A DNA stretch of 64,000 nt, from positions 1 through 64,000 of the forward strand of contig NZ_SSNH01000013.1 of assembly GCF_005877005.1 (NCBI RefSeq), in the 5' to 3' direction. Origin of the DNA: Sinomonas susongensis. Lineage in GTDB: Bacteria > Actinomycetota > Actinomycetes > Actinomycetales > Micrococcaceae. Positions 17,469 through 23,578 of the stretch are shown one piece after another; the first letter of the stretch is position 1; every line of letters starts with the position of its first letter. The notes beneath the pieces were generated by a model. It searched no databases. It saw only the letters and a list, made by a program, of their open reading frames with translations, and had not been told where the DNA came from. A program made the position numbers and the translations under genes.

Positions 17469-17939
17469 ATGACCGTTCGCAGCGCCGCCCTTCTGCTCTA
17501 CAGGCGCGACGAGGGCTCGGGGATCGCCGTGTGGATCGGCCACATGGGGGGTCCCTTCTGGGCTCGAAAGGATGCGCGGGCCTGGTCGATCCCGAAGGGC
17601 GAATTCCTCGACAGCGAGGAACCCTTGGCTGCAGCGGTGCGGGAATTCACGGAGGAGATAGGCACTCCCCCGCCGGCTGCCGACTACGCGCATCTGGGCG
17701 ATTTCCGTCAGCCGTCGCGCAAGATCATCACCGTCTACGCGGCGGAGGCCGACTTCGAGCCGGACCGGATCGAGAGCAACACCTTCCCCCTCGAATGGCC
17801 GAAGGGCTCGGGGCGGATCCAGGACTACCCCGAGATCGACCGAGCCGAGTGGTTCCCCGAAGAAGTCGCCCGGACGAAGCTCGTCGCGGGCCAAGTGCCG
17901 ATCCTCGACGCGCTGCTCGAACGCCTGAAGGCCGTCTAG
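17469..17939 (+). CDS. Nudix hydrolase (NTP pyrophosphohydrolase type)
   Basis: 156 aa; the start ATG has GGAG 5 bases upstream. The Nudix box GEFLDSE-x7-REFTEEIGT is complete at about residues 44-66. The surrounding IPKGE and the DFRQPSRKIITVYAAEADF strand resemble diadenosine-polyphosphate or NTP-cleaving Nudix proteins. The substrate is unknown. Its TAG and the TAG of the convergent histidine kinase share the palindrome CTAG (17936-17939). Confidence 0.88.
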   Translation: MTVRSAALLLYRRDEGSGIAVWIGHMGGPFWARKDARAWSIPKGEFLDSEEPLAAAVREFTEEIGTPPPAADYAHLGDFRQPSRKIITVYAAEADFEPDRIESNTFPLEWPKGSGRIQDYPEIDRAEWFPEEVARTKLVAGQVPILDALLERLKAV

Positions 17940-19600
17940 CCCTCGTTCTGGCCGGCGAGCGGCAGGCGGAGCGTGAAGACGCTCCCCACGCCGAGCTGGC
18001 TCGTCACCTCGAGGCCGCCGCCGAGCAGTTCGGCCACCTCCTGGGCGAGCGCGAGCCCGAGGCCGGTGCCCGGGACCCCCGAACGCAGGGCCGCGTCCCC
18101 GCGCTGGAAACGCGTGAAGACGCGGGTCAGGTCCTCGGGTGCGATCCCGAACCCCTCGTCCGCGACGGAGCACACGGCCCAGTTCCCCTCCCGCTCCAGG
18201 GTCAGCGTGACCTTCGTGCCCTCGTCCGAATACTTCAGGGCGTTCGAGATGAGGTTATCCAGGATGCGGGCGACGGCGGACCGGTCGCCCAGGATGGGCA
18301 GCTCGCCGTCCGCCTCGACGGTGAGGGCGATTTCGCGTGCCTCAGCGTCCGGGGCCGCCGAGTCCGCCGCCTGCTGGACGAGGCGCGAGAGGTCGAGCCG
18401 GACGCGGGGAAGGTCCGGCGCCGAGCCCTCGACGGAGGCGGCCAGGATGTCGTCGACCATCTTCCGCAGATGGCGGGCGTTCCGGCTCATGACCTGCAGG
18501 TCCGAGACGGCCGAGGGACTCAGCGACGGGTCGTCCTGAAGCAGCTCCGCGTAGCCGAGGAGGCTCGTGAGAGGCGTGCGGAATTCGTGCGACATTGCTG
18601 CGAGGAAGCTGTCACGGGCCCGCACCGCTGCAATCACCTCGGTCACGTCCGAGCACGCAAGGACGGTGCCTGCGCGTTCGCCCGCGGCGTCGCGGAACTC
18701 CCGGGCCGAGATCGAGACCGTCCGGGACTCGGGTCCCCGGCCGAGCCGGAACACTTCCCGGGTCATGGTGTCCCCCGCGACTGCGCGCGCCACCGGCCGT
18801 TCCTCGTGTCCGAGGGGCTGATCGGACCCGTCGCGGTAGACGAGCAGCTCGGACTCGTCGACTTCGGTCGCTCCGGGCGGGACGCTCGCGAGGTAGAGCT
18901 GGCGCTGCTTCGTGTTCATGAAGACGTCCTTGCCGTCGCGGTCCAGGAGGAGGACCCCGACGTCGACGGTGTCGAGGATGGTGTCGAGGAGCCGCTGGCG
19001 GGTCTCGCTCCTCGCGAGGAGCTCTTCGACTCGACGCTGCTGAGCCATGCCGCTCATCGTCAGCACCGCGATGGAGACCGCGACGGCCACGAGCATGAAG
19101 GGCACAACGATCTCCGACACGAGACTGTGCGGCTCTGCCGCGCCGAGCGCCAGGAGCGGGAGCCAGACCATGAGCAGGGACGCCAGGGCGCTCAGGGCCA
19201 CAGTGAGGCGCGGCCGGTACCCGGACCCCGAGAGCCAGATGACGGGGAAGACCCCGAGGAGCCCGAGGCCCGAGATCACTCCTCCCGCCCCAGGCCTGAG
19301 GAGTGCGAGCGGAGCGAAGTCGAGCAGGGGGATCGCGAGGACAGCCCACGCCGGGAGGCGGTGCCACGGGACCACGGCGCAGAGCCCGAGGAGCGCCAGG
19401 GCGATGGCCTGGCCGACGACGAAGGCCGGGGCCGAGAGGGTCCGGGGGTCAACGAAGAGGAGGACGACGGCGACGAGCAGGAGCGTCACGTTGAGCGGGA
19501 GCTGGCTCAGGACGGCCTTCCTCCGCATCCCCAGCGCGTGGAAGCGATTCTGGACTCGCACCAGCACGTCGAGCAGAGTCTCCACTTCGTCTCCCGTCAC
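17936..19600 (-). CDS. Membrane-bound PAS sensor histidine kinase
   Basis: 554 aa from GTG 19600. The N-terminal 40-190 region has about six hydrophobic segments (sensor membrane domain). A PAS domain follows at about 205-325 (LLDTILDTVDVGVLLLDRDGKDVFMN). HisKA has the phospho-acceptor His in MSHEFRTPLTSLLGY (about 337), and HATPase_c contains the N box DNLISNALKYS, DEGFGIAPED and GTGLGLALA. It lies divergent from a response regulator gene 76 bases away, its probable partner. The ligand is unknown. Its stop overlaps that of the Nudix gene. Confidence 0.9.
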   Translation of the reverse strand: MTGDEVETLLDVLVRVQNRFHALGMRRKAVLSQLPLNVTLLLVAVVLLFVDPRTLSAPAFVVGQAIALALLGLCAVVPWHRLPAWAVLAIPLLDFAPLALLRPGAGGVISGLGLLGVFPVIWLSGSGYRPRLTVALSALASLLMVWLPLLALGAAEPHSLVSEIVVPFMLVAVAVSIAVLTMSGMAQQRRVEELLARSETRQRLLDTILDTVDVGVLLLDRDGKDVFMNTKQRQLYLASVPPGATEVDESELLVYRDGSDQPLGHEERPVARAVAGDTMTREVFRLGRGPESRTVSISAREFRDAAGERAGTVLACSDVTEVIAAVRARDSFLAAMSHEFRTPLTSLLGYAELLQDDPSLSPSAVSDLQVMSRNARHLRKMVDDILAASVEGSAPDLPRVRLDLSRLVQQAADSAAPDAEAREIALTVEADGELPILGDRSAVARILDNLISNALKYSDEGTKVTLTLEREGNWAVCSVADEGFGIAPEDLTRVFTRFQRGDAALRSGVPGTGLGLALAQEVAELLGGGLEVTSQLGVGSVFTLRLPLAGQNEG

Positions 19601-19676
19601 CTACTTGATATTCCCCAGACAAGTTTGTGACATCCGCGGTAAGAAATGGTTGAGTTGGTCCTGCGAAGGGAGAACG

Positions 19677-20768
19677 ATGACACGTCGCGCGCTCATCATC
19701 GAAGACAACCCCGACATCCGGAGGCTGCTCGAGGCGACGCTAACGCGCCAGGGGTTCGAGGCCACGAGTGCCGGGGCTGGGTACCCCGCTCTCGAGAGCG
19801 CGCGTCGCATCACGCCCGATCTCATCACACTCGACCTTGGCCTTCCCGACCTCGACGGGCTTGAGGTCTGCCGGACCCTGCGGGTCTTCAGCAACGCCTA
19901 CATCCTCGTGGTGACCGCCCGCGCGGCCGAGGCCGACCGTCTGGAAGCGCTGGAACGCGGCGCGGACGACGTGCTGGCCAAGCCGTTCAGCCCGCGCGAG
20001 CTCCAAGCCCGTGTGGAGGCGCTCTTCCGCCGCCCGCGCGCGGCCTCCGTCCCCGAGAGCGAGCTGCAGACGGCGGCCCGCGTCCAGCAGGGACTGCTGC
20101 CGGAGCGGGCGCCGAATGTTCCCGGCTACGAGGTTGCCGGCGCCTGCCATCCCTCGCGGAGTGTCGGAGGTGACTTCTTCGACTGGGAGTCCGACGGCTC
20201 TTCGCTCGCATTCACCCTCGCGGACGCGATGGGCAAGGGCATGGGCGCGGCCCTGGTCGCCGCAACCGCTCGCGCCGTCCTGCGGCCCGGCCGGCTCGAG
20301 CAGGGGCCCGGCGCGCTCGTCGGCGCGGCAGCGCGTGCCCTCGAGCCCGACCTCCTCCGGCTCGGCTCCTTCGTCACGCTCCTCCACACCCGCCTCGATG
20401 CGTCGACTGGCGACTTCACCTACGTCGACGCGGGGCACGGCCTCGGCCTGCTCATCCACCCGGACGGAATGTGGGAGCGGCTCACGACGTCGGGGCCCCC
20501 GATCGGCCTCCTCCAGGGCGCCGAGTGGACAGCGCACGACAGCCGGCTCGAACCCGGCGGGGCCCTCCTCGCACTGAGCGACGGCCTGCTCGAGGCCTTC
20601 CCCCGGGTCGACGAGGCGCTCAACGCGGCCGTTGCCGCCGTCCTCGAGGCCCCCGACGCCGACTCCGCCGTCCGAGCCATCATCGACCTCGATTCGACCG
20701 GCCAGGACGACACGACCGCGATCGTGGTCCGGCGCAGCCGCTCGGGCGCGGGGGTCGCCTCGGGATGA
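19677..20768 (+). CDS. Response regulator fused to PP2C/SpoIIE-type phosphatase
   Basis: 363 aa from ATG 19677 with GGGAG 5 bases upstream. Receiver domain 1-120: acidic pair EDN, phospho-Asp in LITLDLGLPDLDG, and Lys in LAKPFS. After a short helix (QTAARVQQGLLPE, the usual SpoIIE lead-in) comes the PP2C domain with GGDFFDW, DAMGKGMGAALVA, LSDGLLE and GQDDTTAIVV metal-binding motifs. Such RsbU/HsbR-type proteins dephosphorylate STAS antagonists when the receiver is phosphorylated. The STAS gene two genes downstream is the likely substrate. Its TGA overlaps the glycosyltransferase ATG (ATGA). Confidence 0.92.
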   Translation: MTRRALIIEDNPDIRRLLEATLTRQGFEATSAGAGYPALESARRITPDLITLDLGLPDLDGLEVCRTLRVFSNAYILVVTARAAEADRLEALERGADDVLAKPFSPRELQARVEALFRRPRAASVPESELQTAARVQQGLLPERAPNVPGYEVAGACHPSRSVGGDFFDWESDGSSLAFTLADAMGKGMGAALVAATARAVLRPGRLEQGPGALVGAAARALEPDLLRLGSFVTLLHTRLDASTGDFTYVDAGHGLGLLIHPDGMWERLTTSGPPIGLLQGAEWTAHDSRLEPGGALLALSDGLLEAFPRVDEALNAAVAAVLEAPDADSAVRAIIDLDSTGQDDTTAIVVRRSRSGAGVASG

Positions 20769-22828
20769 CCCGCCTCGTCCTCCGCGTCCTTGCCGCCCTG
20801 TCGGTCATCGCGGGCCTCAACTACATCGTGTGGCGCTGGACGTCCTCCCTCAACTGGGGCGCGTGGTGGATCGCGGTCCCCCTCGTGATCGCCGAGACCT
20901 ACTCGATCATCGACGTCATCCTCTTCTCCCTCACGATCTGGCGCATGTCCGAGCGGGACAAGCCGCCGCACGCTCCGAGCGGCCTCACGGTCGACGTCTT
21001 CATCACGACCTACAACGAGGATCCCGAACTCGTGCTCGCCACCGCAGAGGCGGCGCTCGCGATGCGCTATCCCCACACCACGTGGGTGCTCGACGACGGC
21101 TCGCGACCCGAGCTGCGGGCCGCCGTCGAACGCATCGGCGCTCGCTACCTGTCGCGCGGCGAGGAGTGGGTTGGCAAGCCGCGGCATGCGAAGGCCGGCA
21201 ACCTCAACAATGCCCTGCAGGAGACGCAGGGCGAGTTCATCCTCATCCTCGACGCGGACCAGGTGCCGTACCCCGAGCTCCTTGACCGGACGCTCGGCTA
21301 CTTCAACGACCGTAGGGTCGCCCTGGTCCAGACGCCGCAGTACTTCGGGAACGTCCCCGAGAACGATCCGCTCGGGAGCCAGGCCCCCCTCTTCTACGGG
21401 CCGATCCAGCAGGGCAAGGACGGCTGGAACGCCGCCTTCTTCTGCGGATCCAACGCCATCCTGAGGCGCGAGGCCCTCATGCAGCTCGGACTCACCAACT
21501 ACGTGTCCGACACCGAGCGGCGCGTCCGGCGCGCCCTCGCCGTCGGCAGCCGCGTGGTGCGGCGCGCACGACGGCGGCCGGAGGCCCGGGATCCGAGGGT
21601 CGCCTCGCTGCTCGAGAGCGTCGAGCGGGCCATCGCGGAGGGCACGGGCCGCCTCAAGGCGGGCGGCTCGATCGGCGAGGCCACTTACACCGTGCAGTCG
21701 CAGGTCGACTCGGCCGTCCGCGAGCTCGTCGCCGGGGACCTCGCACGCATGACCGGCGACCTCGCCGCGATCCGCACCGAGCTCGGGGTCGAGGACGATC
21801 CCGGTGAAGACCTCGAAGGGCTCGACACCGCCGTCGACCGCCTCGCGGCCCGCGATCTCTCGCCGCTCGGCGCGCTCGAATCGGTCAAGGCCGTGCTTGA
21901 CGCGGTGAGCGTCGAGCGGCTCCACGAGGCCCAGCCGGTCATGCCGCTCTCGACGATCTCGGTCACCGAGGACATGTCGACGTCGATGCGGCTCCACGCG
22001 TCGGGCTGGCGGAGCGTGTACCACCACGAGATCCTCGCCGTCGGCCTCGCGCCCGAGGACCTGCCGTCCATGCTGACCCAGCGCATGCGGTGGGCCCAGG
22101 GGACCGTGCAGGTCATGCTGCGGGAGAGCCCCCTCACGATGCGGGGCCTCTCGTGGGGCCAGCGCCTCATGTACTTCAACACGATGTGGAGCTACCTCTC
22201 GGGCTTTGCCGCCGTCGTGTACTTCGCCGGCCCGCTCGCGTACCTCCTGTTCGGCATCCTCCCTGTGACCGCGCTGAGCCCCGACTTCTTCGCCCGCTTC
22301 ATCCCGTTCATGGTGCTCAACCAGCTCATGTTCGCGTGGGCCGGTCGGGGGGCGAAGACCTGGCGCGGCCAGCAGTACAGCCTCGCGCTCTTCCCGACCT
22401 GGATCCGCGCGTGCACCACCGCGGCAGCAAACGTCTGGTTCGGTCGCCCGCTCGGCTTCGCCGTCACACCGAAGGCGCGGCAGGAAGGCGGGGTCAGCCC
22501 GCTCCGGCTCGTCTGGCCGCAGGCGCTCATGGCGGCGCTGCTCGTGGCCGCGAGCATCATCGGCATCATCCGGTGGGTCATCGGGGCGAGCCAGGGGCTC
22601 GGCACCCTCGTCAACATCGTCTGGGCCGTCTTCGACCTTGTCCTGCTGAGCGTGCTCGTGGGGGCGGCCAAGTATCGCGGCTACGATGCCGTCGCCGAGG
22701 CCGACCCTGAGGCGAGCTCTGTGACGCAGAACGATGCCTCCCCAGCACGGAAGAGTGCTTCCCTGGGTAAGCAGGATGCTTACCCAGGAGAGAAGAACGC
22801 AGTCTCGCACACGAAGGAGGAGCGATGA
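20765..22828 (+). CDS. Cellulose-synthase-like family 2 glycosyltransferase with an inserted domain
   Basis: 687 aa, membrane protein. N-terminal helices (about 1-60) precede a GT-2 domain with TTYNEDPE, DDGS (about 108), ILDADQ (about 162), FFCGSNA (about 227), VTED (about 399) and QRMRWAQG (about 439-446). Several C-terminal membrane helices complete the BcsA-like layout, so it probably makes and exports a beta-linked polysaccharide. Between CGSNA and TED there are about 170 residues instead of the usual 25: an Arg-rich, then helical acidic insert at about 245-393. There is no PilZ domain. The C-end carries a short Ala/Ser/Lys-rich tail. It overlaps both neighbours by ATGA. Confidence 0.88.
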   Translation: MTRLVLRVLAALSVIAGLNYIVWRWTSSLNWGAWWIAVPLVIAETYSIIDVILFSLTIWRMSERDKPPHAPSGLTVDVFITTYNEDPELVLATAEAALAMRYPHTTWVLDDGSRPELRAAVERIGARYLSRGEEWVGKPRHAKAGNLNNALQETQGEFILILDADQVPYPELLDRTLGYFNDRRVALVQTPQYFGNVPENDPLGSQAPLFYGPIQQGKDGWNAAFFCGSNAILRREALMQLGLTNYVSDTERRVRRALAVGSRVVRRARRRPEARDPRVASLLESVERAIAEGTGRLKAGGSIGEATYTVQSQVDSAVRELVAGDLARMTGDLAAIRTELGVEDDPGEDLEGLDTAVDRLAARDLSPLGALESVKAVLDAVSVERLHEAQPVMPLSTISVTEDMSTSMRLHASGWRSVYHHEILAVGLAPEDLPSMLTQRMRWAQGTVQVMLRESPLTMRGLSWGQRLMYFNTMWSYLSGFAAVVYFAGPLAYLLFGILPVTALSPDFFARFIPFMVLNQLMFAWAGRGAKTWRGQQYSLALFPTWIRACTTAAANVWFGRPLGFAVTPKARQEGGVSPLRLVWPQALMAALLVAASIIGIIRWVIGASQGLGTLVNIVWAVFDLVLLSVLVGAAKYRGYDAVAEADPEASSVTQNDASPARKSASLGKQDAYPGEKNAVSHTKEER

Positions 22829-23157
22829 AGTTTGCCGTCGAAGAACGGGACGGCTATACCGAAGTGGCCGCGGAGGGACGGCTCAACATGGTGAGCGCCC
22901 CGATGCTGCGGTCAGCGGTTGCGGACGCCATCGGCGCCGGGCACCGGCTTCTTGTCCTCAATCTGGGGGGCACGGACTTCATGGACTCGTCCGGTCTCGG
23001 TGCACTTGTCGGCTGCCTCAAGGCGGCACGTCAGGCCGGCGGCGACCTCCGGATCGCGAACGTCGGCGAACAGGTCCAGATGGTGCTCAAGCTCACGAGC
23101 ATGGACCGGATCCTCACCCCGTACAGCAACCCCGAGGATGCGTTCCGAGATGCCTGA
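22825..23157 (+). CDS. STAS-domain anti-sigma-factor antagonist
   Basis: 110 aa; the whole protein is one STAS domain. The switch Ser lies in DFMDSSGLGALVG (about residue 54-55), the site that HATPase kinases phosphorylate and PP2C phosphatases dephosphorylate in RsbV/SpoIIAA systems. Its ATG overlaps the glycosyltransferase TGA, and its end overlaps the downstream HATPase gene by 8 bases. It is therefore made in step with both its predicted kinase and the polymerase. Confidence 0.92.
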   Translation: MKFAVEERDGYTEVAAEGRLNMVSAPMLRSAVADAIGAGHRLLVLNLGGTDFMDSSGLGALVGCLKAARQAGGDLRIANVGEQVQMVLKLTSMDRILTPYSNPEDAFRDA

Positions 23158-23578
23158 GCTGCTAGCCCAGGGCCATGTCCGCGGCCCCGCATCGCCGCCC
23201 ATCGTAGACGCCGTCCAGGACGAGCTCTCGCGGGTCTGGGGCGACGCCCACGTCATCGATCCGACAGACCGCATGCCGTTCGAGCTCGCCGTCGTCGAGG
23301 TCGTGACGAACGCCGTGCGGCACTCGAAGCCCGCCTCTGACAAGGTCGAGCTCGACCTCGAGGTCGAAGTGCACCGCGACCTCCTGCTCGCGCGGCTCTT
23401 CGAGCTCGGGGCCAAGCCACTGGACATCCCCGAGAGCGCCGGAACGATGCCCGGCCCCGACTCGGAGGCAGGCCGCGGCCTGGCGCTCGCGCGCCAGCTC
23501 CTCACGACCATCACGTGCGAGCGGCGAGACGATGCCAACGTGTGGACGCTCACCCGCTCGGCCGACGGGAACCCCTGA
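23150..23578 (+). CDS. HATPase_c anti-sigma factor / STAS kinase (RsbW-like)
   Basis: 142 aa from ATG 23150. GHKL ATPase features are present: N box ELAVVEVVTNAVRHS, and the G-rich lid region PDSEAGRGLALARQLL. RsbW/SpoIIAB-type proteins phosphorylate a STAS partner and sequester a sigma factor or other target. It closes the operon RR-PP2C, glycosyltransferase, STAS, HATPase. No sigma factor gene is nearby, so its target may be elsewhere or may be the glycosyltransferase itself (inference). Confidence 0.88.
   Translation: MPELLAQGHVRGPASPPIVDAVQDELSRVWGDAHVIDPTDRMPFELAVVEVVTNAVRHSKPASDKVELDLEVEVHRDLLLARLFELGAKPLDIPESAGTMPGPDSEAGRGLALARQLLTTITCERRDDANVWTLTRSADGNP

Follow-up and report, generated by a model that had tools for sequence, protein, structure and literature searches.

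BcsA-type polysaccharide synthases are the textbook case of gating through PilZ and cyclic di-GMP (c-di-GMP), and one PilZ-bearing relative is described as unresponsive to c-di-GMP (PMC10374906). Partner switches such as RsbU/RsbV/RsbW and SpoIIE/SpoIIAA/SpoIIAB, in turn, comprise a PP2C phosphatase, a STAS protein and a GHKL HATPase. Parts of both kinds of system lie together in Sinomonas susongensis, in positions 1 to 64,000 of the forward strand of contig NZ_SSNH01000013.1 (assembly GCF_005877005.1, 3.77 Mb), a stretch of 64,000 nucleotides referred to here as the window. In it, a BcsA-like glycosyltransferase (GT) without a PilZ domain is encoded in an operon between a PP2C gene and genes for a STAS protein and an RsbW-like HATPase, and its catalytic domain carries an insert predicted to be helical. 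The interpretation we favour, and hold to be probable with considerable room for doubt, is that the HATPase/STAS switch gates the synthase via this insert, in place of PilZ and c-di-GMP.

HsbR and RbaY are receiver-PP2C proteins, SiaC is STAS-like, and we know of no polysaccharide synthase within the HsbR-HsbA or RbaV/W operons. The latter two are proteobacterial partner switches with lifestyle or biofilm outputs (PMC6482189, PMC3999984), and are likened to the window's switch by description, not by sequence. On the same descriptive basis, Vibrio fischeri SypE-SypA is related in that the STAS protein SypA controls polysaccharide-dependent biofilm formation; its target is given as unknown, and SypE is given as a dual kinase/phosphatase, unlike the window's phosphatase (PMC8256260). 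That source also describes Anabaena all4160, in which an N-terminal STAS domain is tied to a glycosyltransferase in the same protein, as opposed to the separate gene in the window, and the title of a paper cited there links such genes to heterocyst envelope polysaccharide; this, too, is a likeness by description. In the accounts cited, SypA sets a precedent for biofilm control by a STAS protein, and SiaC one for control of an enzyme, the diguanylate cyclase that it activates in Pseudomonas (SiaD, PMC8457831). Searches of the open-licence PMC literature brought up no account of an operon joining PP2C, GT, STAS and HATPase.

The window's GT shares the catalytic and gating motifs of BcsA (PDB 9fmz and 4p00; TIGR03030). 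The whole BcsA/CelA set of D, DxD, TED, QxxRW and FxVTxK gating loop is present, as DDG at residue 110, DADQ at 163, TED at 401, QRMRW at 439 and FAVTPK at 565. It differs from BcsA in having no PilZ domain (no Pfam match at E ≤ 1 or, in a second scan, at E ≤ 0.05), in a score of 366.5 bits against TIGR03030 (CelA), under the cut-off of 699.1, in the absence of BcsB from the operon, and in an insert of about 148 residues within the catalytic domain, immediately before TED. In alignments, insert-less relatives roughly skip these positions, and structure models predict a three-helix bundle. In BcsA-type enzymes, a segment immediately ahead of TED is in a good position to shift the finger helix and the gating loop. 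Foldseek found no PDB match to the insert at E ≤ 0.001, and the best profile match had E = 0.034; novelty of the fold does not follow from this, because helical bundles are easily missed. The genome's second BcsA-like GT (L050, G000:C36, 7092-9278) is insert-less and has a C-terminal PilZ match of 22.3 bits against a cut-off of 22.5; both types of synthase thus seem to be present in this organism.

Insert-bearing GTs were followed through a set of 98 close-relative genomes, in which 17 copies occur in 16 genomes, own genome included. The search also returned a weak match in G069 (E = 2.3e-4), which covers positions 249-327 of the insert and falls in a different frame, 958 residues long. One alignment comprised 13 of the 17 copies, excluding L041 (solitary), L044 (misassigned frame), L047 (stretch of N) and L034 (contig end); a second comprised the window and 55 of the 80 named loci introduced below, at mutual identity under 88%.

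The initial annotation had described a PAS histidine kinase divergent from overlapping genes for a receiver-PP2C protein, the GT, a STAS protein and an HATPase, with neither a sigma factor gene nor PilZ. Pfam confirms this arrangement (Table 1), the overlaps read from the sequence being 4 nucleotides for PP2C/GT, 4 for GT/STAS and 8 for STAS/HATPase. Neither a sigma factor gene nor a BcsB gene is found among the operon and the three nearest flanking genes scanned with Pfam (encoding a NUDIX protein, a LysR substrate-binding-domain protein and DUF5997), the rest of the window lying outside that scan; no cyclase domain is found by Pfam in the operon. Loss of the neighbourhood in relatives had been set beforehand as a possible refutation, and the neighbourhood is instead widely kept in close relatives, in named genomes and in a draw from the class. 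As to the proposed five-gene order, the histidine kinase stands outside the conserved core. Among the 16 ortholog copies besides the window's, STAS is the next gene in 15 and HATPase adjoins in 14; PP2C also turned up in 14, a homolog of the kinase in just 8. Two copies lack part or all of the STAS-HATPase pair: in one the contig ends inside STAS, and the other is a solitary second GT copy (L041, G011:C22, 7298-9367), which has no switch genes nearby, is missing the QxxRW segment and looks non-functional.

A scan of named genomes returned at least 569 relatives, the closest among the scan matches listed being from Sinomonas. The best 80 named loci, which were analysed, belong to at least 25 genera, among them Arthrobacter, Kocuria, Rhodococcus, Nocardioides, Mycobacterium, Clavibacter and Kitasatospora. 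The HATPase adjoins the GT in 76 of these and STAS does so in 71, and 68 have a PP2C on the same strand within the locus; in other loci the PP2C can come with a sensor of its own, e.g., GAF in L113. The GT stands alone in L097, L125 and L127, and L078 lies at a contig end. Five loci, of a Curtobacterium type, have GT and HATPase with no adjacent STAS. Altogether nine loci are without adjacent STAS, one of them by a contig end; seven of the genomes concerned were searched, and six hold STAS elsewhere (four Curtobacterium and those of L127 and L097), while none was found in the seventh, the 2.5-Mb metagenome bin G135. Chance adjacency of GT and switch genes was considered and is ruled out by the conservation of the operon in the three samples.

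The class draw consisted of 394 genomes drawn evenly within the class, 23 of which hold the insert. One of these loci (L267) is cut by a contig end and another is a broken relic. In the remaining 21 (18 of the 20 loci fetched for the draw, with those of the own genome, G051 and G352), STAS and HATPase come immediately after the GT, and PP2C lies within the locus in 20 of these 21 intact operons. An HATPase profile gave at E ≤ 1e-20 a single match in each of 21 of the 394 genomes, all at the same 21 operons, a result favoured by the profile having been built from GT-linked HATPases. For comparison, 25 insert-less BcsA-like GTs at 24 loci, from close to distant relatives (best profile E from 1e-81 to 1e-9), show no STAS, HATPase or PP2C of these families at E ≤ 0.01 in fetched flanks of about 2.6 to 7.5 kb. 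One control GT, L161, has an out-of-order stretch matching profile positions 266-357. In the loci examined, the insert is carried by switch-linked GTs only, which makes it a plausible contact site. A scan of 396 genomes across the phylum (E ≤ 1e-100, three candidates scored per genome) found the GT in two and was not used for prevalence. The relic (L276, in the 1.6-Mb genome G830) is a decayed operon with fragments of GT and PP2C.

Given that the sequences are too few for direct coupling analysis, partial Mantel correlations were computed with GT-core distance held fixed, over 68 rows and over the 50 remaining after near-identical ones were removed. Insert distance correlates with that of HATPase at 0.457, of STAS at 0.400 and of PP2C at 0.189 (68 rows), and at 0.407, 0.398 and 0.177, respectively, in the less redundant set; these values refer to the whole insert, some 149 residues, and are unmatched in size with the 75-residue windows that follow. 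When 75-residue windows are moved along the GT, starts 241 to 361 yield 0.26-0.33 for HATPase, with no other window above 0.253. For STAS, starts 211 to 361 yield 0.22-0.37 and the others at most 0.257, so that the ranges touch. The PP2C correlation peaks outside the insert, with 0.36 at residues 511-585. This ranking modestly singles out the insert, and the pattern of divergence fits an insert facing HATPase and STAS, with phylogeny partly remaining in the correlations.

Table 1. Genes and insert of the synthase operon and its divergent kinase, in window coordinates.
Feature	Coordinates	Strand	Basis
Membrane histidine kinase with PAS domain, divergent from operon; SHE-type motif of HisKA at residue 337	17936..19600	-	Pfam HisKA, HATPase_c, PAS_4; motif
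Receiver fused to SpoIIE-type PP2C phosphatase, ATG placed at 19677	19677..20768	+	Pfam Response_reg and SpoIIE-type PP2C
BcsA-like GT2 polysaccharide synthase without PilZ	20765..22828	+	Pfam Glycos_transf_2/Cellulose_synt; motifs
GT insert, residues ~246-394, after the DxD part and before TED; predicted to form three long helices	21500..21946	+	Alignments, models, insert-less relatives
STAS domain-only protein, anti-sigma-antagonist type; D54-S55-S56 conserved, likely phosphosite S56	22825..23157	+	Pfam STAS; TIGR00377 over cut-off
RsbW-like GHKL HATPase; E50, N54, G108-R109-G110 conserved; Glu not Asp at G1 box	23150..23578	+	Pfam HATPase_c_2; conservation

From the genes, motifs and linkage described, we infer that the five genes may form one post-translational control unit for extracellular beta-glycan synthesis. 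The histidine kinase would phosphorylate the receiver of the PP2C protein and thereby set its phosphatase activity, and the PP2C would dephosphorylate STAS. Unphosphorylated STAS would bind the HATPase; free HATPase would bind the helical insert and hold the synthase in one state, most likely off, until STAS pulled it off. The insert would in this way take the place of BcsA's PilZ/c-di-GMP gate. We put only slightly better than even chances on the wider proposal, that in a whole clade of actinobacterial BcsA-like synthases the PilZ/c-di-GMP gate has been replaced by a helical docking insert gripped by the RsbW-like HATPase and freed by STAS, an anti-sigma module thus exerting direct allosteric control over a processive synthase.

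The switch proteins carry several features of an RsbUVW-type partner switch, namely a Ser/Thr after DS in STAS, Glu and Asn in the HATPase N box, and the metal-binding Asp motifs of a SpoIIE-type PP2C. The latter are seen as GGDFFD at residue 164, DAMGKG at 183, SDG at 301 and DDT at 344, with DLGLP at residue 53 of the receiver. The HATPase, whose ATG lies at 23150, scores 37.7 bits against HATPase_c_2 (cut-off 27.4) and matches RsbW 6m36 by profile with E = 4e-10. Apart from the STAS superfamily TIGR00377, neither GT, STAS nor HATPase has an NCBIfam match over a curated cut-off. In comparison with RsbU/RsbV/RsbW and SpoIIE/SpoIIAA/SpoIIAB, the window shares PP2C, the DSS of STAS and the N-box residues, and differs in the lack of an operon sigma gene, in the synthase placed between PP2C and STAS, and in the missing Asp of the G1 box. 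All 87 aligned STAS proteins keep D54, S55 and a phosphorylatable residue 56 (Ser in 85, Thr in 2), and all 92 aligned HATPases keep E50, N54 and GRG. At the G1-box position, 56 of the 92 have Asp, 18 have Glu (the residue in the window), 17 Ala and one His. By pattern match, a receiver-type PP2C accompanies 29 of 35 loci with a non-Asp G1 box and two with the Asp form (L114 and L128, the latter holding both forms). Glu or Ala at the G1 box thus mostly coincides with a receiver-type PP2C, i.e., the type of input and the state of the ATP site go together.

A number of observations, here and in the next two paragraphs, weigh against the proposed gating. The G1-box Asp is missing in 36 of the 92 HATPases, the window's included. 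Owing to this degenerate box, the HATPase of the window's clade may bind ATP poorly and may act mainly as a binding protein, its kinase step weak or lost, and the phospho part of the switch is weakened for this genome. The insert is among the fastest-evolving parts of the GT. The correlations are modest in size, one insert window for STAS (0.22) falls below some windows outside (up to 0.257), and the permutation test fails to single out the insert, because each of the six pairings of insert, STAS, HATPase and PP2C ranks above 998 or 999 of the 999 permutations, with phylogeny still included. No GT fused to STAS or HATPase occurs in single frames of the 80 named loci.

The switch genes also occur apart from the synthase. 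At E ≤ 1e-10, the close relatives yielded 26 HATPase matches, of which 15 adjoin the GT, 10 lie away from an insert-bearing GT, and one, in G006, has its placement relative to the GT interrupted by a contig break. Seven of the ten GT-less loci were inspected. A PP2C-STAS-HATPase set persists in G047, with no GT match in the genome. In G137 (L221, 7237-11086), such a set has a divergent kinase like the window's and no GT between, the genome's GT being elsewhere (L127). In G008 (L227, 7486-9765), a STAS-HATPase pair of this subfamily, without GT, comes after ECF sigma and zf-HC2/RskA-like anti-sigma genes in a same-strand run, possibly a second use of the pair. Because of such loci, the pair is not bound to the synthase everywhere, and a strict one-to-one coupling of GT and switch in both ways is ruled out. 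G009 (L232, 7460-10260) has an HATPase of the subfamily whose neighbours are a histidine kinase related to the window's and a receiver-like protein; GT, STAS and PP2C gave no match in that stretch.

These loci lend themselves to another explanation, that STAS and HATPase are an ordinary anti-sigma switch acting on a remote sigma or transcription factor, with the synthase merely a co-transcribed output. The G008 run and the persistence of the set in G047 both speak for it, as does the fact that the named families closest to the pair are those of anti-sigma factors and their antagonists. The window's genome, moreover, has three SigB/F/G-like matches of about 201-211 bits, under the curated TIGR02980 cut-off of 234, and a second STAS gene (G000:C2) lies some 4 kb from one of them. 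On TIGR02980, the best scores of GT-bearing genomes form two groups, one of about 170 bits and more and one of about 140 and less, the latter being read as the housekeeping factor; SigB/F/G grade was accordingly set at our own line of about 165 bits, laxer than the curated cut-off. Such factors occur in 18 of 20 class-draw genomes, and a general lack of them in operon-bearing genomes is thereby ruled out. Only the lower group is found, on the other hand, in four of the 16 GT-bearing relatives (G032, G048, G054 and G059) and in 19 of the 45 named genomes surveyed from the 80 loci, 15 of these 19 with a complete GT-STAS-HATPase operon and four of the Curtobacterium type. Two of the 20 class-draw genomes have no match of that grade: G666, with the lower group only, and G696, whose absence is not trusted, given that it has no TIGR02980 match at all, not even for the housekeeping sigma. 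G047, too, has only a lower match. The existence of operon-bearing genomes without such a factor makes a target other than a SigB/F/G sigma likely, and on this survey of sequences a SigB/F/G factor as the common target appears unlikely; ECF or other factors may be targets, in view of the G008 run. Since the insert also goes with the switch genes, we regard the anti-sigma explanation as unlikely overall. The initial annotation's proposal that a phospho-switch instead of c-di-GMP controls the polymer hence stands in part: it is favoured by the conserved operon, the operon-bearing genomes without SigB/F/G and the restriction of the insert to switch-linked GTs examined, and is weakened by the degenerate G1 box of the window's clade and by the STAS-HATPase loci without GT.

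The switch could also control some other polymer-handling protein or a nucleotide-messenger enzyme and reach the GT indirectly, as the SiaC-SiaD precedent illustrates. Genes grouped into one cluster, a member of which is present in 33 of the 80 named loci, are candidates for the former; among seven members tested, three match GH26, two OpgC_C, one both and one neither. Yet no member appeared within the flanks fetched for the other 47 loci or beside the window's operon, and, with no cyclase domain in the operon and no PilZ on the GT, we give such an indirect route little probability. Very little is given to the view that the insert has no role beyond GT oligomerisation or choice of substrate, its linkage reflecting shared inheritance of a mobile operon. 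Its position does resemble that of the class-specific region (CSR) of plant CesA, which lies between DxD and TED. The CSR is placed in the central cytoplasmic domain (PMC8306620). The distribution of the insert (23 of 394 genomes) is, moreover, patchy, so a co-transferred cassette would show linkage anyway. Against this view, divergence of the insert follows HATPase and STAS beyond the remaining GT, and the Curtobacterium GTs keep an adjacent HATPase though STAS is elsewhere.

As for the polymer, the GH26/OpgC_C neighbours suggest, from their domains, a beta-glycan, possibly acylated and trimmed. Three genes adjoining the synthase operon (L127, 8989-11562; L103, 9357-11870; L226, 9613-12081) encode large proteins in which an OpgC_C acyltransferase domain is combined with what looks like a signal peptide. 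The GH26 match is just over the cut-off in L127 and under it in L226, the latter having no NCBIfam match.

If gating of the synthase by the HATPase/STAS switch is true, the outputs of partner switches would widen from transcription to a membrane enzyme, with residues 246-394 of the window's GT as the predicted docking segment. The operon would then offer a model for STAS control of a polymer without a known sigma target, which would be relevant to SypA.

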